From: Pseudonocardiales bacterium
GTDB taxonomy: Bacteria > Actinomycetota > Actinomycetes > Mycobacteriales > Jatrophihabitantaceae
Reading direction: 5' to 3'
NCBI GenBank assembly: GCA_030840295.1
Contig: JAVEET010000147.1
Location: 1 to 36,387, forward strand
DNA: 36,387 bases
This document shows positions 2,290 through 36,219 of this stretch, in pieces (the stretch's first letter is position 1; every line of letters starts with the position of its first letter). The notes under the pieces were generated by a model. It saw nothing but the letters and a program-made list of their open reading frames with translations. It was not told the origin of the DNA and made no database searches. The position numbers and the translations under genes were made by a program.

Positions 2290-3737
2290 ACGCGGAGGAG
2301 CTCGCGTTCTCGAGTATCACGCAGCTCGGCGCCCTGCTCCGCAGTGGCACGGTGTCGCCTACTGAGCTCACCGAGCTTTACCTGGGGAGACTGGACCGCA
2401 TCGGTCGCAGCCTTAACGCGGTTGTCACCATCACTGAGGACATCGCGCACAGGGAGGCCGCGCTGGCCGAGGCAGAGCTCCGTTCCGGACTCGATCGTGG
2501 ACCACTGCACGGAATCCCGTACGGGCTCAAAGACATCATCAGCGCGGTCGGGGCACCGACGACATGGGGCGCGTTTCCCGACCAGCGTTTCGCTGAGGAG
2601 GCCACGGTCACCCGCAGGCTTCGCGATGCTGGCGCGGTTCTGCTGGCCAAGGTAGCGACAATTGAGATAGCCGGAGGTATGGGATACGACAATCCAGACG
2701 CCTCGATAACCGGCCCTCCCGCCAATCCATGGCATACCGAGCGCTGGACGAACGGGTCCTCCAGCGGGCCATCCGCGGTCGTGGCGGCCGCGGTTCTTCC
2801 GTTCGCCATGGGCAGCGACACGGGAGGCTCTATCCTGCTTCCCGCCGCCTTCACCGGGACCGCCGGGATGCGAGCGACGTACGGCAGAGTCAGCCGCGCC
2901 GGGGCAATGACACTTTGCTGGACGCTGGACCGGCTAGGACCGATGTGCCGGTGTGCTGATGACTGTGGCCTGGTGTTGGAGGCGATTGCGGGCCATGATC
3001 CGCGAGATCCGTCGAGCCTGGGCCGCCCCTACCGCTATCGGCGGGCCCACCGGCGACGCACGGACTTTCGCTTCGGGGTCATCAGCGGTTCCTGCGATGG
3101 TGCCGAGACCGAGGTGTCAGCCAATTTCGATGTATCGCTTGCCGCCCTTGGAGAGATAGGCACGCTCCATGAGGTGCAACTGCCCGATCTGCCGTATGGC
3201 GAGGTCGCCGAACTTGTGACCAGCGCCGAGGCCTACGCGGCCTTCGACGCGTTCATTGCGAGCGGGCGAACTGTCGAGCTCACAGCGTCGAAGGCGCGCG
3301 CGCACCGGCTGGCCGGCGCCGTGATACCCGCAGTCGACTACATTCGCGCGCAGCGAATTCGACGGGTGATTGCGGAACGGTTCGCCGAGCTCGCATCGGG
3401 CTACGACGCGTTGCTGGCCCCGTCGCTGGGCGTCGTTGCATCCGGCGTCAATGACGATTTCGAGTACATGCTTCCGGGCGCCTTCGGACGCCCACTTAAC
3501 TATGCCGGCGTGCTGTCCGGTACGCCGACCGTCTCCGTGCTCAACGGCCTCGGTCGCGATGGTCTGCCCACCGGCATCCAGTTCGCGGGGGGCGCCCTGA
3601 AGGAGAACAGGATTCTGGACGCCGCGGTGGCCCTTGAAGAACGCACCGGAACAACACTCCTGCGCCCGGACGGGCCGCACGGCACGGCCGCACGAGCAAG
3701 CACGGGCGTCGGACGCGGGAACGGGTCAGCCGCATGA
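2286..3737 (+). CDS. Amidase (amidase-signature family)
   Basis: A 483-residue cytoplasmic amide hydrolase of the Ser-cisSer-Lys family. The catalytic Lys is in YGLKDI (about residue 82), the cis-Ser in the GSSSGPS loop (about 158), and the nucleophile in GSDTGGS (about 182). The signature is slightly unusual: GSSSGPS instead of GGSSGGS, and GGSILLPA where most members have Arg after GGSI. The start at 2286 is preferred over the in-frame ATG at 2274 because it forms an ATGA overlap with the upstream gene; the stop likewise overlaps the start of the first permease. Related enzymes include GatA, AtzE and aryl/alkyl amidases. Operon context suggests it hydrolyses an amide imported by the adjacent ABC system; the substrate is not readable from sequence. 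Confidence 0.9.
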   Translation: MNAEELAFSSITQLGALLRSGTVSPTELTELYLGRLDRIGRSLNAVVTITEDIAHREAALAEAELRSGLDRGPLHGIPYGLKDIISAVGAPTTWGAFPDQRFAEEATVTRRLRDAGAVLLAKVATIEIAGGMGYDNPDASITGPPANPWHTERWTNGSSSGPSAVVAAAVLPFAMGSDTGGSILLPAAFTGTAGMRATYGRVSRAGAMTLCWTLDRLGPMCRCADDCGLVLEAIAGHDPRDPSSLGRPYRYRRAHRRRTDFRFGVISGSCDGAETEVSANFDVSLAALGEIGTLHEVQLPDLPYGEVAELVTSAEAYAAFDAFIASGRTVELTASKARAHRLAGAVIPAVDYIRAQRIRRVIAERFAELASGYDALLAPSLGVVASGVNDDFEYMLPGAFGRPLNYAGVLSGTPTVSVLNGLGRDGLPTGIQFAGGALKENRILDAAVALEERTGTTLLRPDGPHGTAARASTGVGRGNGSAA

Positions 3738-7303: not shown

Positions 7304-8539
7304 TTGACCACCGTGATACGAGCGGACCGCCTCGTCGACGGCACCGGCGCCGCCCCGATTCAGGACGCGACCCTGGTTATCGATCAGGGCAGAGTTGTCG
7401 GAGTGTTTTCCGGGGAGGCGCCCCAGGCCCTGGTGCCAGCAGACGCCGAAGTGTTCGATCTGCCCGGATGCACCATCCTCCCCGGGCTCATCGACTCACA
7501 CGTACATCTCAACTTCCCGGGCAACGGCATCCTCCTCGAGGAGATCATGGCCGAATCCCAGGGGGTCATGGTGGCAACAGCCGCCTTCGCCGCAGCCAAA
7601 GCCCTCGAATCGGGAATCACGACCGTCCGTGACACCGGCTGCGTCCAAAGCACAGTTTTCGACCTTCGGCGCTCGCTGACGCTCGGACACGGACTGGGCG
7701 CGACGATCCTCGCCTGCGGCCAGCCGATCACGATCACCGGCGGCCACACCTGGTACCTCGGCGGCGAAGCGGACGGTGTCGACGGACTGCGCAAGAAGGT
7801 CCGGACGATGGCCAAGCTCGGCGCTGACGCGATCAAGGTCATGGCCAGCGGCGGCGGAACGCTGAACACGCTGTCCTACCGCCCGTCCTTCCGACCGGAG
7901 GAACTCGCCGCCATCGTCGACGAGGCTCACCGGCTGGACCGCAAGGTAACAGCACACTGCCTGTGCGCCGAGGCGATCTCGATTGCGGTGGACGCGGGGG
8001 TGGACCAGCTCGAACACGCCGGATTCATCGTGGACCCGGAGGGAAACCAGAAGTTCGACCCAGCCGTGGCCGAAAAGGTGGCGGCTGCCGGCGTCGCGGT
8101 GACCACAACCCTCGCCGTCGGTGGTTACGCGGTCAAGGAGATGCGTGCCAAGTCTGAGCTGACCGCAGCTGAGCAGAGCTTCCACGATGACTGGAGCAAG
8201 ATGCTCGAGGACAACCTCCATCAGTTCGGCCAGATGCACGAGGCCGGAGTGAAGTTCGTGGCAGGGACCGACGCGGGCTGGCGGTTCACCCCGATCGACG
8301 GTCTTCCCGAGGAACTGGCGCTGATGCAGCAGGGAGGCATGACGAACATGCAGGCGTTGAGCGCGGCCACCGGAATCGCAGCCTCCACGCTAGGAATCGA
8401 CGGCCACGTCGGGACGCTTGAGGCCGGCCTCGACGCGGACGTGCTCGTGGTAGCCGGAGACCCGCTTCAGGACCTCTCGGTGCTCCGGGACGTCCAGCTG
8501 GTCCTGCAGGGCGGACAGGTCCGAGTCGGGTCGAGATGA
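7304..8539 (+). CDS. Metal-dependent amidohydrolase (prolidase/imidazolonepropionase-like)
   Basis: A 411-residue amidohydrolase-superfamily enzyme with a complete binuclear-metal set: HVH at residues 66-68, a likely carboxylated Lys at 178 (AIKVMASGGG), His 218 (TAHC), His 238 (LEHAG) and Asp 323 (GTDAG). The N-terminal 60 residues and the C-terminus (GTLEAGLDADVLVVAGDPL) form the beta-sandwich. Overall it resembles the group including L-Xaa-Pro/Lys/Arg dipeptidases and imidazolonepropionase-like proteins. The start is TTG at 7304 with ACGGAGC upstream. The stop overlaps the next ATPase (ATGA). Probably cytoplasmic, hydrolysing the imported compound or a product of it. Confidence 0.85.
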   Translation: MTTVIRADRLVDGTGAAPIQDATLVIDQGRVVGVFSGEAPQALVPADAEVFDLPGCTILPGLIDSHVHLNFPGNGILLEEIMAESQGVMVATAAFAAAKALESGITTVRDTGCVQSTVFDLRRSLTLGHGLGATILACGQPITITGGHTWYLGGEADGVDGLRKKVRTMAKLGADAIKVMASGGGTLNTLSYRPSFRPEELAAIVDEAHRLDRKVTAHCLCAEAISIAVDAGVDQLEHAGFIVDPEGNQKFDPAVAEKVAAAGVAVTTTLAVGGYAVKEMRAKSELTAAEQSFHDDWSKMLEDNLHQFGQMHEAGVKFVAGTDAGWRFTPIDGLPEELALMQQGGMTNMQALSAATGIAASTLGIDGHVGTLEAGLDADVLVVAGDPLQDLSVLRDVQLVLQGGQVRVGSR

Positions 8540-9561: not shown

Positions 9562-10572
9562 GTGGTCGACATCGACAGCAAGCCCGGCAGCGAGGCCGGC
9601 GCGGACGTCCTGCTCGACGTGCGCAACCTCAAAACCTATTACCCGAGCCGGGCTCGTGTGCTCGGGCGCAAGCAGGACTGGGTTCGGGCCGTCGACGACG
9701 TATCATTCACGATCCGGCGCGGCGAGACGTTCGGCCTCGTCGGCGAGTCCGGCTGCGGAAAGTCGACCCTGGGGCGGTCGGTGGTGCGCCTGGAGAAGGC
9801 CCAATCCGGACAGGTAATTTTCGAGGGCTCCGACGTGCAGCAGTTGACGGGCCGTAAGCTGAAGAAAATCCGCAGCGATCTGCAGGTCATCTTCCAAGAT
9901 CCGCAAGGCAGTCTGGATCCGCGGATGAAGGTACGCGAGATCATCGCGGAGGGGCTGTCGGTACAAGGCACCCTGAGCAGGGACGAACGCCGCGAACGCG
10001 TGCATGACCTCGCTTCGGTCGTCGGTCTTCGAGAGGAACACCTGGACCGCTACGCCCACGAATTCAGCGGCGGTCAACGGCAACGCATCGGAATCGCGAG
10101 GGCACTAGCGCTGCGACCGAAGTTCGTGCTCGCCGACGAACCTGTGTCCGCCCTCGACATGTCCGTACAGTCTCAAGTGCTCAACCTGCTCAGCGACCTG
10201 CAGCAGGAGTTCGACCTGACATACCTGTTCATCGCTCACGACCTCTCGGTCGTGGAATACATCAGTGACCGGGTGGGCGTGATGTACCTCGGCAAGCTGG
10301 TCGAAGTGGCAAATGCGACGGACCTGTATGCCGATCCGCGGATGCCCTACACCCAGGCGCTGCTGTCGGCGATCCCCGGGTCTCACACCCTACGCGGTCG
10401 CGAGCGCATCGTGCTGAGCGGCGAGGTTCCCAGCCCGCTGGATCCCCCTTCGGGCTGCCGGTTCCGTACCCGATGCTGGCGCGCTGAATCGATCTGTTCG
10501 GTGGAGGAACCGGTTCTCACTGAGGTTCGCCCAGACCACTGGGCGGCCTGCCACTTCGCGGCGGAATCATGA
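9562..10572 (+). CDS. Peptide-type ABC transporter ATPase (DppF/OppF-like)
   Basis: A 336-residue partner ATPase with Walker A GESGCGKS (about residues 61-68), [13 protein letters not shown], signature FSGGQRQR, Walker [12 protein letters not shown] and FIAHDLSVV for the H-loop. The C-terminus carries the oligopeptide-transporter extension ([15 protein letters not shown]). An ATG at 9529 is in frame but has no ribosome site. The GTG at 9562 has GAGGAGGG at 9549-9556 five bases upstream, so it is taken as the start; annotation from 9529 would add 11 residues. With the ATPase at 8536 it completes the importer. Confidence 0.92.
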
Positions 10573-13632: not shown

Positions 13633-14407
13633 ACGCACAGAGTGCCCTGATCACCGGAGCGGCCAGCGGGATCGGCCGGGCTGTGTCGGTCGCCTTGGCC
13701 GAGACGGGAATTCCAGTGGCTATCGGTACTTTCGACGGCGACCCTCACGATCCCCGTGAGACGCTTGAGGCAGTCGAACGGGCAGGTGGCCGCGGCGTGG
13801 TCGTCCAGGCCGACGTGCGCGACAGCGACCAGCTGCTCAAGGCGTGCAAACAGCTCAAGGCGTGCAAACAGGCGGCCGAGCAGTTCGGCGCCCTGACCCA
13901 TGTCGTCGCCAACGCCGGCATTCTGCACCGTCAGACCTAGATGGACTGTCCGATGAACTCTGGAACCATCTTCTCGACGTCGACCTGACCGGCGTCATGC
14001 GCACAGTCCGCGCGGGAGCCTCGGTGATGAACGACCGTGGCGCGATCGTCTGCGTCTCGAGCATCTCAGGTGGCGTCATCGGCTCGATCGGGCATACTCC
14101 GTACGCCGCCTCCAAAGCCGGGATGCTTGGCTTTGTCCGAAGCAGCGCTCTGGAGCTGGCGCCGCGGGACATCCGAGTGAACGCCGTCTTGCCCGGTGTC
14201 ATCGCCTCCCCGCAGTCGTTGGATCCGGTGAACTCCGCAGGTGAGGACGGTCTGGAGAGCGCAGCGAAGCGGATCCCGCTCGGGCGGGTGGGCCAACCCG
14301 ACGAGGTCGCCGATGTGATCTGCTTCCTCCTTTCAGCACAGGCCCGCTACATGACCGCCCAGACCGTCGTCGTCGACGGTGGAATGACCGTCGCCTGGCC
14401 GACCTAG
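13629..14407 (+). pseudogene. Third short-chain dehydrogenase, frameshifted, with an internal duplication
   Basis: The first part (13629-13940) has TGAASGIG and VVANAGILHRQT, then a stop. The protein continues in another frame from LDGLSDELWNHLLDVDLTGV through Ser (VSSISGG), Tyr/Lys (YAASKAG) to the end at 14407. Restoring one C in the CAGACCTAG at about 13934-13941 would read HRQTLDGL and join the halves into a normal-length SDR. Upstream, an 18-bp unit at 13836-13853 is repeated exactly at 13854-13871, adding LKACKQ twice in an SDR helix. Either the gene is dead or the missing C is a sequencing error; the duplication is in frame and independent of it. Confidence 0.85.
13836..13871 (+). repeat. 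18-bp exact tandem duplication inside the third SDR
   Basis: Two adjacent copies of CTCAAGGCGTGCAAACAG at 13836-13853 and 13854-13871. In frame it adds six residues (LKACKQ) before AAEQFG. It looks like replication slippage and is rare in the SDR fold at this position. Confidence 0.9.
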
Positions 14408-20370: not shown

Positions 20371-21015
20371 ATGACATCCGCATGCGATCTCGGCCTGCTT
20401 GCCTTACGTATAGGAATTGGCGGCACATTCATTGCTCATGGCACCCAGACGTTGTGCGGCTGGCTCGCCGGCCCCGGTCTCGATGTGACTGCCGCTCGGT
20501 TTGAGCAGTTGGGCATTCGCCCGCGGCGTGTGAATGCGCTGGTGGCCGGACTCGCCGAGGCTGGAGGAGGCGCTCTGCTCGCCACCGGTCTTGCCACTCC
20601 GGCTGCCAGCGCGACCAGCGCCGGCACGGTGGTCATCGCCTCGTCCACACCCACCTCCCCCGGTTTCTTCACCGGCGATACGGTGGCCTCGTTCCACGCC
20701 ACCCTGGGCTCCAGCGCCGCGGCACTTTGCCTGGCTGGCCCCGGCACGCTCTCCCTCGACCACGCCCTAGGCCATCGCTTCAACCGGAACTGGGTACGCG
20801 CCGTCGCCTTCGCTGCGGTCGTGCCCGCGGCGAAGCTTGTCATCGCTAAGCGGCGTTACACGCTAGCCATGGGTCTCGCTGAATCGGTTGATGCCGATGC
20901 CGCCTGCCGGTCAGTACTCCCTCGCCCGATTCATCGACGGGAGCCGTCCATGTTCGACCGCGACCCGCACCCAGGCTCGGCGGGTTTGACGGCTCGCATG
21001 CGGAGCATTCGGTGA
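20371..21015 (+). CDS. DoxX-family membrane protein
   Basis: A 214-residue protein with about four hydrophobic segments. The DoxX signature is visible at the start: LALRIGIGGTFIAHGTQTL, then GWLAGPGLDVTAARFEQLGI and LVAGLAEAGGGALLATGLATP. ATG at 20371 is preceded by GGAGAA about 10 nt upstream; the frame runs further upstream, but only as antisense-like text over the MMPL gene end. The soluble, Arg-rich C-terminal extension of about 60 residues is longer than usual. DoxX proteins are linked to redox/thiol stress membrane complexes. The stop overlaps the next gene (GTGA). Confidence 0.8.
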   Translation: MTSACDLGLLALRIGIGGTFIAHGTQTLCGWLAGPGLDVTAARFEQLGIRPRRVNALVAGLAEAGGGALLATGLATPAASATSAGTVVIASSTPTSPGFFTGDTVASFHATLGSSAAALCLAGPGTLSLDHALGHRFNRNWVRAVAFAAVVPAAKLVIAKRRYTLAMGLAESVDADAACRSVLPRPIHRREPSMFDRDPHPGSAGLTARMRSIR

Positions 21016-29508: not shown

Positions 29509-30248
29509 CTTACCGCGGATTCGCGACCCTCGAACTCATCGAGCTCCCCGATCGGGTTGTGGCCACGCTGAACCGGCCCGAGACCCGCAACGCGATCGAC
29601 CTGGCCATGGTCGAGGAGCTGCACGCGGTGTGCGAACTCGTTGAAAGCGGTCAGCACGCGTTGTTGATCACTGGTGCGGGCGGGACGTTCGCGGCCGGCG
29701 CCGATATCGCCCAACTGCAGCAGCGCGGGCGCGACGAGGCACTGTCCGGGATCAATAGCCGGCTCTTCGATCGGATCGCACGGCTACCGGCCCTGACCCT
29801 CGCCGCCATCGACGGCCCGGCGCTGGGCGGCGGGGCCGAACTCGCCTACGCCTGTGACATCAGGATCGTGACGCCGACGGCCCGGTTCGGCAATCCCGAA
29901 CCCGGGCTGGGCATCCTGCCCGCCGCCGGTGCCTGCTGGCGACTGGCCGAGCTCGTAGGCAAGTCCGTGGCCAAGCAGGTGCTGCTGGGTGGCTACACCC
30001 TGCACGCCGAGCAGGCGATGCGCGTCGGGCTGGCCAGTGAGATCGTTGCACGCGAGGAGCTACTCGCTCGAGCCCACCGAATCCTCGACCGGACCTCGGC
30101 CTGGTCACCGCTGGCCCTGCGGCTGACGAAACTCGTGCTCGACAGTGACGGCGCGCACCCGCTCGCCGACGACCTTGCCCAGGCGATCCTGTTCGACACA
30201 CAGGACAAACGCGACCGGATGACCGCGTTCCTCGAGGGGAACGGATGA
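29505..30248 (+). CDS. paaF: Enoyl-CoA hydratase/isomerase (PaaF-like)
   Basis: A 247-residue crotonase-fold protein. The CoA/oxyanion loops are TFAAGADIAQL and GPALGGGAELAYACD. The Glu of NPEPGLGILP aligns with a catalytic Glu of crotonases. It would hydrate 2,3-dehydroadipyl-CoA; because the nearby isomerase-like gene at 31129-31775 is broken, it may also have to cover other crotonase steps. The ATG at 29505 overlaps the thiolase stop; an upstream in-frame ATG at 29460 would overlap the thiolase by 49 bp and is rejected. Confidence 0.87.
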   Translation: MTYRGFATLELIELPDRVVATLNRPETRNAIDLAMVEELHAVCELVESGQHALLITGAGGTFAAGADIAQLQQRGRDEALSGINSRLFDRIARLPALTLAAIDGPALGGGAELAYACDIRIVTPTARFGNPEPGLGILPAAGACWRLAELVGKSVAKQVLLGGYTLHAEQAMRVGLASEIVAREELLARAHRILDRTSAWSPLALRLTKLVLDSDGAHPLADDLAQAILFDTQDKRDRMTAFLEGNG

Positions 30249-31813: not shown

Positions 31814-33847
31814 ATGGCAGTGTTGCCGAGCTACCTGGAGGGTGCGTGGGTGTCCTCGTCCAGCGATGGCGCGCCGATGCACGATGCGGTTACCGGTGAA
31901 GAGATCGGGCGCTTGTCGAGCGCTGGCCTCGACCTGGCCGCCGCGCTCGACTACGGCCGACGCGTCGGCGGGGCCAGCCTGCGGGAGCTGACCTTCCACC
32001 AGCGCGCGGCACTGCTCAAATCCGTCGCCTCCTACCTGCGCGAGCACCGCGACGAGCTCTATGCCCTCTCGGCGCGCACCGGTGCGACCCTGAACGACTC
32101 GAAATTCGACATAGACGGCGGCATCGGGGTGCTACTGGCATATGCGAGCAAGGGACGCCGTGAGCTGCCTGCGGACACGCTCCTGCTGGATGGCGACATC
32201 GAGGCGCTCGGGCGTGGCGGCACGTTCCTGGGTCAGCACGTGTGGACGTCCCTGCGTGGCGTTGCCGTGCAGATCGATGCGTTCAACTTCCCCGTCTGGG
32301 GACCGCTCGAAAAGCTCGCACCCGCCTTCCTCGCGGGCGTGCCGAGCTTGATCAAACCGGCCAGCCCAACCGCTTTCCTCTCGCATCGCATGATGGAGCT
32401 GATCGTGGAGTCCGGCCTGCTGCCCGACGGCTCCGTTCAGCTCATCGCCGGCGGTGCGGGTGATCTGCTCGACCACTTGAGCGAGCAGGATCTGGTCGCT
32501 TTCACCGGTTCGGCCAGTACCGCGCAGCGATTGCGAACTCATCCCGCGGTCGTCGCGAACGCAGTGCGGTTCACCGCTGAGGCCGACTCGCTCAACTGCT
32601 CTATCCTTGGACCGGACGCCGTCCCCGGCACGCCTGAGTTCGACCTGTTCGTCAAGGGGCTGACGACCGAGATGACGGTGAAGGCGGGGCAGAAATGCAC
32701 CGCGATCCGGCGCGCGATCGTGCCGAACGCGTTGATCGACGCGGTCGCCGAATCCGCGTCAGCCCGGCTCGCCAAGGTCGTCATCGGAAATCCGGCCAAC
32801 CCCGATGTCCGGATGGGCGCCCTCGCCGGCCTCGAGCAGCGCGAAGAGGTACGCCGTTCGCTCAAGGCGCTCACCGACGCGGGCCGGATCGTATTCGGCG
32901 ATCCCGAGCACGTCGAGGTCCTCGACGCCGACGCCGAGCGAGGCGCGTTCCTATCCCCGATATTGCTCGTGGCCGACGGAAACCGGGCCGAACCCCACGA
33001 GGTCGAGGCGTTCGGCCCGGTCAGCACCCTGATCGGCTACGACACCGTCACCGACGCGATCGAACTGGCGCGGCGCGGCAGGGGCAGTCTCGTCGGCTCC
33101 GTCGTCACTCATGACACGCAGGTCGCGAACGAGGTCCTACGAGGCATCGCCGCGTGGCACGGGCGGCTTCTGGTTCTGGACCGCGACGATGCGGGCGAGT
33201 CAACCGGGCACGGCTCACCGCTCCCCATGCTGGTACATGGCGGCCCGGGCAGGGCCGGCGGTGGCGAGGAGCTGGGCGGCATCCGTGGCGTCCAGCACCA
33301 CATGCAGCGCACCGCCGTCCAGGCCTCGCCACGCATGCTGACCGCCCTGACCGGCCGCTGGACCTCCGGCTCGGAACGCACCGTCACCGACGTGCACCCG
33401 TTCCGGAAATCCCTGACCGAGCTGCGGGTCGGCGACGCGATCGTCGCCGGGCCGCGGCGGGTCACCGACGAGGACATCGCGCACTTCGCGGAGTTCACCG
33501 GCGACACGTTCTATGCACACACAAACGCCGCGGCCGCCGCCGCCAATCCGTTCTTCGACGGCATCGTCGCGCACGGCTACCTCGTCGTGTCACTGGCCGC
33601 CGGCTTGTTCGTCGATCCTGAGCCCGGCCCGGTCCTGGCCAACTACGGCATCGACAACCTGCGCTTCCTGACACCGGTCTATCCGGGTGACGAACTGACG
33701 GTCACGCTGACCTGCAAGGCGATAACGCCGCGCGGTGAGAGCGAACACGGCGAGGTTCGCTGGGATGCCGACGTTACCAAGCAGGGCGGCGACTCCGTCG
33801 CCAAGTACGACGTCCTGACGATGGTTGCGAAGGAATGGGCCTCATGA
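31814..33847 (+). CDS. paaZ: Bifunctional oxepin-CoA hydrolase / 3-oxo-5,6-dehydrosuberyl-CoA semialdehyde dehydrogenase
   Basis: A 677-residue ring-opening enzyme. The N-terminal aldehyde dehydrogenase domain (about 1-520) has Glu 256 (FTAEADSL) and Cys 295 (GQKCTAIRR), the same positions as in E. coli PaaZ. The C-terminal MaoC-like hydratase (about 540-677) has the Asp/His pair D564/H569 in GDTFYAH, followed by [14 protein letters not shown]. It hydrolytically opens oxepin-CoA and oxidises the aldehyde. ATG at 31814 has GGAGG 7 nt upstream; upstream in-frame starts lie across the operator and are rejected. The stop overlaps paaA (ATGA). Confidence 0.94.
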
Positions 33848-34785
33848 CGACAATCGAGCCGCTTCAGCAGCATTTCGAGGACACGATCGCGCACGAGCAC
33901 CGGATCGAGCCCAGGGATTGGATGCCTGAGGGCTACCGCAAGACGATGATCCGCCAGATCGGCCAGCACGCCCATTCGGAGATCATCGGCATGCAGCCGG
34001 AAGGCAACTGGATCACCCGGGCTCCGTCACTGCGGCGTAAGGCGATCCTGCTGGCCAAGGTGCAGGACGAGGCCGGGCATGGCATGTATCTCTACTCGGC
34101 GGCCGAGACCCTTGGTGCCGACCGAGCCGACCTCACCGACAAGCTGGTCCAGGGCCGGCAGAAGTACTCCTCGATCTTCAACTACCCGACGCTGTCCTAC
34201 GCCGACGTGGGCGTGATCGGCTGGCTCGTGGACGGCGCAGCGATTTGCAACCAGGTGCCGCTATGCCGTTCGAGCTACGGGCCCTACGCGCGCGCGATGA
34301 TCCGTATTTGTAAAGAGGAATCCTTCCATCAGCGGCAAGGTTACGAGCTGCTGATGACGATGATGCGCGGTACCGACGCGCAGCGGCAGATGGTCCAATC
34401 CGCTGTCGACCGGTTCTGGTGGCCGTCGCTGATGATGTTCGGCCCGCCGGACGAGGCCTCCACGAACACCGAGCAGTCGATGGCATGGGGCATCAAGCGC
34501 CACACCAACGACGAGCTTCGCCAACGATTCGTGGACATGTCCGTGCCCCAGGCCGACAAGCTCGGAGTGACGCTGCCCGACACTGCGCTGAAGTGGAATG
34601 CCGAGCGCGGCCACTACGACTTCGGCGCGGTCGACTGGGACGAACTGGCTGCCGTCATCGGGGGAAACGGCCCGTGCAACATCCAACGGGTCGCCCACCG
34701 CAAGGCAGCGCACGATGACGGCGCGTGGGTTCGTGAGGCCGCGACAGCGCACGCCGCCAAGGCAGCCAAGGCGGCACAGGGATGA
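33844..34785 (+). CDS. paaA: Phenylacetyl-CoA 1,2-epoxidase catalytic subunit PaaA
   Basis: A 313-residue ferritin-like di-iron subunit. Metal-binding segments are visible as [15 protein letters not shown] (about residues 76-90) and [15 protein letters not shown] (about 157-171), each with an ExxH-type pair. Conserved blocks [21 protein letters not shown] and [20 protein letters not shown] identify PaaA. It epoxidises the aromatic ring of phenylacetyl-CoA with O2. ATG at 33844 overlaps the paaZ stop; an ATG at 33835 is in frame but directly abuts the AAGGA. Confidence 0.95.
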
Positions 34786-35144
34786 CCAATCACGTCGCCG
34801 AGGGTGGCCACGGCGCCATCCCCACCAGTGGTATCCCCGTCGAGCCGGCAGCCGAGATCGTGCACACCGACTGGCCGCTTTACGAGGTGTTCCTGCGGGG
34901 CAAGCGCGGGCTGAACCACGTGCATGTCGGCTCGCTGCACGCCGCGGACGCGCAGATGGCGCTGCACCATGCCCGCGACCTGTACACCCGCCGCAACGAA
35001 GGCGTCAGCATCTGGGTGGTCGCGTCCAAGAGCATCACGGCCTCCTCCCCCGATGAGAAGGACCCGTTCTTCGCCCCGTCCGGCGACAAGGTCTACCGAC
35101 ACCCCACCTTCTACGACATCCCCGACGATGTCCCGCACATGTGA
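34782..35144 (+). CDS. paaB: Phenylacetyl-CoA epoxidase subunit PaaB
   Basis: A 120-residue small subunit. Family blocks are [43 protein letters not shown] and [17 protein letters not shown]. It joins PaaA and PaaC into the oxygenase assembly. It is somewhat longer at the N-terminus than the about 95-residue E. coli protein. The ATG overlaps the paaA stop (ATGA). It is followed by the repeat element rather than directly by paaC. Confidence 0.93.
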
Positions 35145-35159
35145 GCCGGTGACGACCCG

Positions 35160-35249
35160 ATGAGTGAGCATCGAAGGGCCGCTCGCGGCCCGAGGAGCGG
35201 AGCGAATCCAGCGATGAGCGCTCGCGCGAAGAGCAGGCTCGCCTCATGA
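35160..35249 (+). CDS. Micro-ORF 1 in the paaB-paaC repeat
   Basis: A 29-residue Arg/Ala-rich basic peptide (MSEHRRAARGPRSGANPAMS...) starting 15 nt after the paaB stop. Its TGA (35247-35249) overlaps the ATG of the second micro-ORF as ATGA. No clear ribosome site precedes it, so it would depend on reinitiation after paaB. Translation is not proven; the overlap geometry is the evidence. Confidence 0.45.
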   Translation: MSEHRRAARGPRSGANPAMSARAKSRLAS

Positions 35250-35324
35250 GTGAGCATCGAAGGGCCGCTCGCGGCCCGAGGAGCGGAGCGAATCCAGCGA
35301 AGAGCGCTCGCGCGAAGAGCAGGC
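35160..35324 (+). repeat. Tandem 79-bp repeat (86-bp period) between paaB and paaC, MIRU-like
   Basis: Copy 1 is 35160-35238 and copy 2 is 35246-35324. They match at 78 of 79 bases (T at 35215, A at 35301) and are separated by 7 bp (TCGCCTC). Each holds a GGGCCG/CGGCCC hairpin, an AGGAG-like element and a GAGCGCTCGCGCGAAGAGC end. Each copy starts with ATGAGTGAGCA and is open on the coding strand. The layout (tandem unit, ORF with ends overlapping neighbours, inside an operon) resembles mycobacterial MIRU elements, without sequence identity that I can claim. Confidence 0.85.
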
Positions 35325-35332
35325 CAACCTGA
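35246..35332 (+). CDS. Micro-ORF 2 in the paaB-paaC repeat
   Basis: A 28-residue peptide nearly identical to micro-ORF 1 (MSEHRRAARGPRSGANPAKS...), in a different frame because the period is 86 bp. Its TGA (35330-35332) shares its last base with the ATG of paaC (TGATG). A chain of coupled starts thus links paaB to paaC. Confidence 0.45.
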   Translation: MSEHRRAARGPRSGANPAKSARAKSRPT

Positions 35333-36219
35333 TGAGCGAAGAGGACGAGTTCGGCGCCTACCACGCGCTGACCGAGAGCGAGGACGACCGCAGATGGGCG
35401 TTCGGGACCGGGTTCACCGACGCGCTAGAAGGCGTTGACACCACGGTTCCCGACGGGGTGGATGGTGCGGCCCTCGCCTGCTACTGCCTCATGCTGGGCG
35501 ATGACGCCCTGATCTACAGCCATCGCCTGCAGCAGTGGATTACCCGCGCGCCCGAACTCGAAGAGGAGACGGCGCTGGGAAACATCGCGCTCGACCTGCT
35601 CGGGCAGGCGAGAATGCTGCTCGCCCGCGCCGGCCGGGCCGACAGGACCGGCCGGGACGAGGACCGCCTGGCGTTCTTTCGGGAGGAGAGCGAGTTCCGC
35701 AACGTCCGGCTGGTGGAGCGTTGTGACAATGACTTCGCCGAACTGGTGGCGCGGCTGCTGGTGTTCTCGACGTTCCGGCTCGCGCTCTTCGACGGGCTGA
35801 GGACGTCGGGTGATCCGGTGCTGGCAGCGATCGCCGCCAAGGGCGTGAAGGAGCTGACCTACCACCGCGACTACGCGGCGCAGTGGGTCGTGCGTCTCGG
35901 CGACGGAACCGAACTCTCGCACAACAAGATGCAGGCCGGCCTGGACGTCATCTGGCCGCTGGTCGACGAACTGTTCGTCCCGCATCCAATCGAGGCTTCA
36001 CTGCACGGCGTCGCTGTCGACGTCCAGACGCTGCGGACCGAGGTCGACGTCGTGCTCGACACCGTCCTGGCCACCGCCGGCCTTGACCGGCCGGCGACCG
36101 CACCGATGGCCACCATCCGGGGCCGGGCCGGGCGCGACGGCGTGCACACCGAGGCGCTGGGTTACGTCCTGGCCGAACTGCAGAGCGTAGCCCGCGCCTA
36201 CCCGGACGCGACCTGGTGA
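35332..36219 (+). CDS. paaC: Phenylacetyl-CoA epoxidase structural subunit PaaC
   Basis: A 295-residue ferritin-like subunit, longer than the about 250 residues of the E. coli protein. Landmarks are LMLGDDALIYSHRLQQWITRAPELEEE, ALGNIALDLLGQARMLL, RNVRLVERCDNDFAELVARLLVF and KELTYHRDYAAQWVVRLGDGT. It pairs with PaaA as the non-catalytic scaffold. The ATG at 35332 overlaps the second micro-ORF stop. The stop overlaps the next gene (GTGA at 36216). Confidence 0.93.
   Translation: MSEEDEFGAYHALTESEDDRRWAFGTGFTDALEGVDTTVPDGVDGAALACYCLMLGDDALIYSHRLQQWITRAPELEEETALGNIALDLLGQARMLLARAGRADRTGRDEDRLAFFREESEFRNVRLVERCDNDFAELVARLLVFSTFRLALFDGLRTSGDPVLAAIAAKGVKELTYHRDYAAQWVVRLGDGTELSHNKMQAGLDVIWPLVDELFVPHPIEASLHGVAVDVQTLRTEVDVVLDTVLATAGLDRPATAPMATIRGRAGRDGVHTEALGYVLAELQSVARAYPDATW

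Follow-up and report, generated by a model that had tools for sequence, protein, structure and literature searches.

Our analysis of the window, a 36,387-nucleotide stretch of DNA from a Pseudonocardiales bacterium, identified two tandem repeat units separating the paaB and paaC genes of a paa operon, and we conclude that this array probably stems from a MIRU-like element, dispersed and non-autonomous, that inserted at the start codon of paaC, with coupling kept by termination and reinitiation of translation on the small open reading frames (micro-ORFs) that the units carry. MIRUs, the mycobacterial interspersed repetitive units reportedly described by Supply et al. in 1997, are well-known tuberculosis typing markers, and we know of no description to date of coupled units inserted into operons other than these Mycobacterium repeats. 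The host of the window is probably a Jatrophihabitans-like soil actinomycete, and Mycobacterium belongs to a different family; what we describe here, judged from its DNA, is a real, dispersed, MIRU-like candidate coupling element outside that genus. The array and the genes around it are made up of the following features.

33835-34785, + strand: paaA, phenylacetyl-CoA epoxidase large subunit (ORF; Pfam PaaA_PaaC, 9.1e-96)
34782-35144, + strand: paaB (ORF; Pfam PaaB, 2.1e-42)
35145-35159, + strand: spacer of 15 nt from the paaB stop to unit 1
35160-35245, + strand: repeat unit 1, 86 bp
35160-35249, + strand: micro-ORF 1, 29 aa, MSEHRRAARGPRSGANPAMSARAKSRLAS (ORF; its stop and the micro-ORF 2 start share ATGA, -4)
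35160-35213, + strand: 5' module of unit 1, 54 bp, ATGAGTGAGCATCG...AGCG
35176-35191, + strand: dyad in unit 1, GGGCCGC-TC-GCGGCCC, in a segment that varies across the family
35214-35245, + strand: 3' module of unit 1, 32 bp, ATGAGCGCTCGCGCGAAGAGC...
35246-35331, + strand: repeat unit 2, 86 bp, matching unit 1 at 81/86 positions
35246-35332, + strand: micro-ORF 2, 28 aa, MSEHRRAARGPRSGANPAKSARAKSRPT (ORF; its stop and the paaC start share TGATG, -1)
35262-35277, + strand: dyad in unit 2, GGGCCGC-TC-GCGGCCC
35332-36219, + strand: paaC, its start ATGA being the putative insertion site, with empty sites in relatives (ORF; Pfam PaaA_PaaC, 7.1e-76)

The earlier note had described two near-identical copies between paaB and paaC, each with a micro-ORF of 28 or 29 residues, joined through overlapping stop and start codons and repeating with a period that is not a multiple of three, and our analysis reproduced each of these observations. 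TRF returned a single array at 35160-35324 with a period of 86 (i.e., 2 mod 3) and a 98% match, the two units differ once within their first 79 bp, and a 24-bp core was absent from every shuffle of the window, which places the array far beyond chance. The paaA/paaB junction upstream is itself an ATGA overlap (34782-34785, -4), and the paaB stop is separated from unit 1 by a gap of 15 nt (35145-35159), with no overlap. Overlaps of exactly 4 nt between neighbouring ORFs are frequent in the window, at 34782-34785 and also, for example, at 3734-3737, 8536-8539, 10569-10572, 21012-21015 and 30245-30248, so that potential ATGA-type insertion sites are plentiful in the window, and only one junction is occupied. 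Elsewhere in the window, at 13835-13871, a frame resembling a short-chain dehydrogenase contains a perfect 18-bp in-frame duplication (GCTCAAGGCGTGCAAACA twice), with a TAG at about 13938, and is possibly a decaying gene.

The window unit matches four further places in its own genome, giving five places when paaB-paaC is included. These are located in or beside pdxT-yebC, before a gene resembling cystathionine synthase, at ureA-ureB and at rnhB-DUF2469, the genes being named from their translated ORFs without a family-library search. Matches to the unit were present in 34 of 61 related genomes, with a maximum of 24 in a single genome, and with about 80 further stretches and a nucleotide profile the family set came to 104 distinct arrays, all of which we examined. 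The family consensus is ATGAGTGAGCATCGCAGCGAGGGCCAGCGAGCGAGGAGCGGAGCGAATCCAGCGATGAGCGCTCGCGCGAAGAGCAGG followed by a variable tail and ATGA, and units outside Mycobacterium are 86 bp long in the window and 77-89 bp in the family. Co-directional genes flank most of the 104 arrays on either side (73 were scored on both sides, 19 upstream only and 9 downstream only), in agreement with the earlier note, which had named many intra-operon copies of the repeat as support for its reading. No member of the family turned up in the collections of phage, plasmid and viral sequences, at the sensitivities applied. Among named sequences, the closest loci come from metagenome-assembled genomes labelled Pseudonocardiales bacterium BP_205 (PaaC 86%) and, within the same family group, Jatrophihabitans sp. 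At two loci a unit has been absorbed into a host protein: the C-terminal tail SECERSDERLREEREKP of PdxT derives from a unit (L002, 1501-1555), as does the N-terminal MSEHRSGH of UreB (L004, 1552-1575).

Analysis of the array junctions demonstrated that overlap with the neighbouring genes recurs across the family. For 72 arrays the upstream gene could be scored and the first DTGA located; the upstream stop codon lies within this DTGA in 38 of them, and in most of the others it is no more than 30 nt before it. At the other end, ATGA or GTGA is the downstream start in 62 of 82 cases, mostly 6-10 nt past the conserved 3' core. Followed from the first start of the unit, the micro-ORF chain of 45 out of 64 arrays runs into the downstream start with a -4 or -1 overlap, compared with 20.9 when array interiors were shuffled, so that the conserved start/stop overlaps proposed in the earlier note are a property of the family. 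Since 7 of 21 ordinary near junctions in these genomes, about a third, are already -4 overlaps, the overlap at the upstream end is in part a property of the target sites. The phase that yields an ATGA overlap is a length of 2 mod 3, and despite their varying lengths 30 of 39 single-unit arrays have it, with a binomial probability (3e-8) that is somewhat inflated because some of these arrays are orthologous; counted by distinct length, 12 of 21 single-unit lengths are 2 mod 3 (p 0.02). Some arrays have a broken chain, or a unit fused in frame to the downstream protein. Shine-Dalgarno (anti-SD) pairing upstream of the downstream starts was no better in energy than in shuffled sequence.

Comparison with other genomes identified empty sites at two of these loci. 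In every other family genome with a paaB-paaC pair the full element is absent from it; G002 contains a weak partial unit match near the junction (E 1.6e-4), and traces linked to ATGA/GTGA are visible at this junction in G008 and G003. In the nearest of these genomes, G007, the junction reads paaB TGA-GCCGGCA-ATGA paaC, and in G006 it reads TGA-GCCGGTGACCAGCAG-ATGA, compared with TGA-GCCGGTGACGACCCG-ATGA[unit..] in the window. As the empty site of G006 has a similar 15-nt spacer before the paaC ATGA, the spacer in the window is probably native. At pdxT-yebC, a bare -4 ATGA overlap is the common state (G003, G004, G016, G017, G020 and others), and units occupy the junction in G000, G008 and G014, as they do a second copy in G002. 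The sequence AGAGCGGG at this junction in G006 resembles the 3' end of the element, and as the site could be ancestrally empty or the remains of a collapsed insertion, we did not count it as proof.

Copy number also differs between close genomes at orthologous sites, as the earlier note had anticipated, although these are comparisons between species. For example, rnhB-DUF2469 contains two units in G000 and one in G006, where the flanks are 95-96% identical in DNA, and two other orthologous sites contain one unit versus two (G002 and G003) and two versus one (G022 and G017). Three outcomes that the earlier note had listed as counting against its reading, namely a repeat present only here, copies without overlaps elsewhere, and the same coupling in strains lacking the repeat, did not appear.

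The upstream flank of an array shares 3.03 of 8 bases with its downstream flank, compared with 2.30 (sd 0.16) when cross-paired, and none of 2000 shuffles scored as high. Clear duplications of 5-12 nt before the ATGA occur at a few sites, e.g., L161 and L162, and many arrays have no such target duplication. Direct repeats of the bases preceding the target ATGA were seen at both ends of the arrays at L161, L162, L203 and L206, and resemble a target duplication of variable length. Y1/REP transposases (PF01797) were found in none of 24 family genomes, with a positive control, and mobilization by a REP/RAYT system is therefore unsupported. The proposal of the earlier note that a mobile repeat family inserts into operons without uncoupling them thus holds as far as a MIRU-like, coupling-preserving insertion family is concerned, and does not extend to a named transposition machinery.

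Based on published MIRU biology (PMC12548453, PMC4473831), we propose the following mechanism for the paa array. The element starts with [A/G]TGA and carries a micro-ORF of roughly 28 codons, open as far as a terminal [A/G]TGA, and would have inserted at the paaC start and then been duplicated in tandem, or have arrived already as a tandem. Ribosomes would be handed from the upstream stop to the downstream start by termination-reinitiation: those released at the paaB stop would begin again at unit 1, after 15 nt, then at the ATGA common to units 1 and 2, and then at the TGATG common to unit 2 and paaC, so that paaC would stay coupled to paaB. A purine-rich stretch, GAAGAGCAGG, precedes each following start and may aid this restart, although the anti-SD pairing is no better than shuffled, and the 15-nt gap without overlap at the paaB end counts against the mechanism. 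Each unit may shed some ribosomes, with slightly lower PaaC as the result. In such a mechanism the element would be a coupling-preserving spacer, which would allow it to reside in operons, and the micro-ORF peptide would probably be incidental. Strong comparative evidence leads us to infer that the micro-ORFs are translated and that ribosomes reinitiate along them; the element may move by transposition, and PaaC may fall stepwise relative to PaaB with each added unit, a tuning that the earlier note had suggested. The family itself, its junction architecture, its phase keeping, its empty sites and its variation in copy number can be read directly in the sequences.

The 3' part of the unit (ATGAGCGCTTGCGCGAAGAGCAG..) also occurs in many Mycobacterium genomes, with up to 55 matches per genome, in the form of tandem units of 32 bp and sometimes 33 bp (L031, L271-L298). 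Among these Mycobacterium arrays of 32-bp units, 14 of the 19 with a scored downstream gene have a -4 overlap between the ORF of the last unit and the next start, and the upstream stop lies inside the first ATGA in 12 of 23. As this 3' half is free-standing as a 32-bp unit in Mycobacterium, we read the 86-bp unit of the window as 54 + 32 bp, and some Mycobacterium genomes contain the 5' module without the 3' module (L275, L292). A literature text search for the core sequence returned no paper, which is weak evidence of novelty since the subscription literature lies mostly outside such a search. These findings incline us, with some reserve, towards a modular superfamily of coupling elements, mobile and transposase-less, spread across several families of the order that contains Mycobacterium. 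The 32-bp unit (ATGAGCGCTTGCGCGAAGAGC..ATGA) would stand alone in Mycobacterium and be joined to a 54-bp 5' module in the Jatrophihabitans-like lineage, members would insert at start/stop overlaps and persist only in the phase that keeps coupling, and MIRU would be one branch of this superfamily or a parallel case.

An alternative reading is that the window units are true MIRUs by descent, i.e., that the MIRU sequence family is present in another genus. We read MIRUs upstream of regX3 as four 53-bp units (ATGACCCGCGCCAACGACGATGCAGAGCGAAGCGATGAGAAGGAGTGGCGCCG) in G339 and as one unit in G314 (L124, L125), and found 24 and 23 dispersed MIRU matches in these two genomes, respectively. Descent from MIRU would account for what the two have in common in architecture, sites of insertion, size class and phase (53 and 86 both being 2 mod 3), and an internal ...AGCG-ATGAG... 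joint is present in both the MIRU units at L124 and L125 and those of the window family. We nevertheless consider it unlikely, since a MIRU array query had no match in the family genomes G000, G001, G002 and G007, and profile searches between MIRU and the window family were not significant in either direction. Pairwise scores between the two were reached by anything from 10/2000 up to 657/2000 shuffles, with the best single scores at 10/2000 to 28/1000 and the score of consensus against consensus at 339/2000. In addition, the window unit has a dyad, and MIRUs are stated to lack one (PMC4473831). Given these marginal or negative sequence tests and the window dyad, we call the family MIRU-like and do not class it as MIRU; the MIRU-like architecture seen in the earlier note is upheld, and its impression of an unrelated sequence holds in the weaker sense that the tests of DNA homology came out marginal or negative, though the 3' half of the unit occurs in Mycobacterium.

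The dyad itself raises the question of whether an RNA or DNA structure (a hairpin, an attenuator or a REP-like structure) is the functional part of the unit, with the start/stop overlaps being incidental. The strong dyad GGGCCGC-TC-GCGGCCC is found in both window units, and some relatives contain dyads with different complementary arms, but in most family members the dyad is weak or absent. Folding energy of the units was no better than that of shuffled sequence (z 0.24 and 0.14), no Y1 transposase was found in 24 family genomes, and a functional structure would leave the phase keeping unaccounted for, making this reading improbable. The segment after GCATCG was observed either as strong hairpins with differing arms (GGGCCGC/GCGGCCC, GGCGC/GCGCC, GGGCC/GGCCC) or as non-hairpin versions.

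Selection for a functional basic peptide encoded by the micro-ORF is, in our view, very improbable. The N-terminal half, MSEHRSE..RARSGAN, does recur in one frame in most full-length units, but the frame of the C-terminal half differs between sites, giving ..SAMSARAKS.. at 18 coupled sites and ..ASDERSREE.. at 11, and both versions close on an overlap. Unit lengths also run from 32 bp to more than 90 bp, and the 32-bp units of Mycobacterium hold only about 10 codons. The N-terminus would recur because the DNA of a recent mobile family is conserved, as opposed to selection on the peptide, and the two frames argue that what is conserved is the phase and not the peptide. A tandem duplication local to the paa operon, with no wider family, would fit the near identity of the two window units and the observation that copies within an array are usually most alike, but is refuted by the dispersal of the unit in its own genome and in many relatives, and we give it virtually no weight.

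The coupling-preserving insertion that we favor would extend the MIRU architecture to a different sequence family outside Mycobacterium. The empty sites, the phase statistics and the hundreds of natural insertions turn coupling preservation into a question with many natural replicates, and the non-pathogenic hosts offer a route to testing how a short repeat gets into an operon and leaves it working. The same hosts are suited to asking whether the ratio between neighbouring proteins follows from copy number.

Among known systems, REP and REPIN sequences with RAYT (Y1) transposases resemble the window family in being short, dispersed and non-autonomous, some with a dyad, and differ from it in the transposase (0/24 family genomes with Y1); to our knowledge, REPs carry no coupled ORF. 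The 32/33-bp unit of Mycobacterium is almost identical in sequence to the window unit's 3' half and is likewise tandem and coupled, but is without the 54-bp 5' module, and it is distinct from the 53-bp MIRU. The small ORFs of MIRUs have ends that overlap the contiguous ORFs, run in the same direction and show no dyad symmetry (PMC4473831), and MIRU insertion at start codons with -4 spacing leaves expression little disturbed (PMC12548453). The window family differs from MIRU in its host family, in its unit length (86 bp, 77-89 bp in the family, versus 53 bp), in the 7-bp perfect dyad of both window units, and in that its 3' module also exists as a separate 32-bp unit. It is like MIRU in being dispersed, intergenic and co-directional within operons, with a tandem copy number that varies; in having micro-ORF ends that overlap the neighbouring stop and start, which in the window is seen downstream (TGATG) and between units (ATGA) and not on the paaB side; in its insertion at start codons in a DTGA/ATGA context, with ATGA or GTGA at most downstream starts and ATGA at the empty sites; and in a unit length, 53 or 86, that is 2 mod 3.
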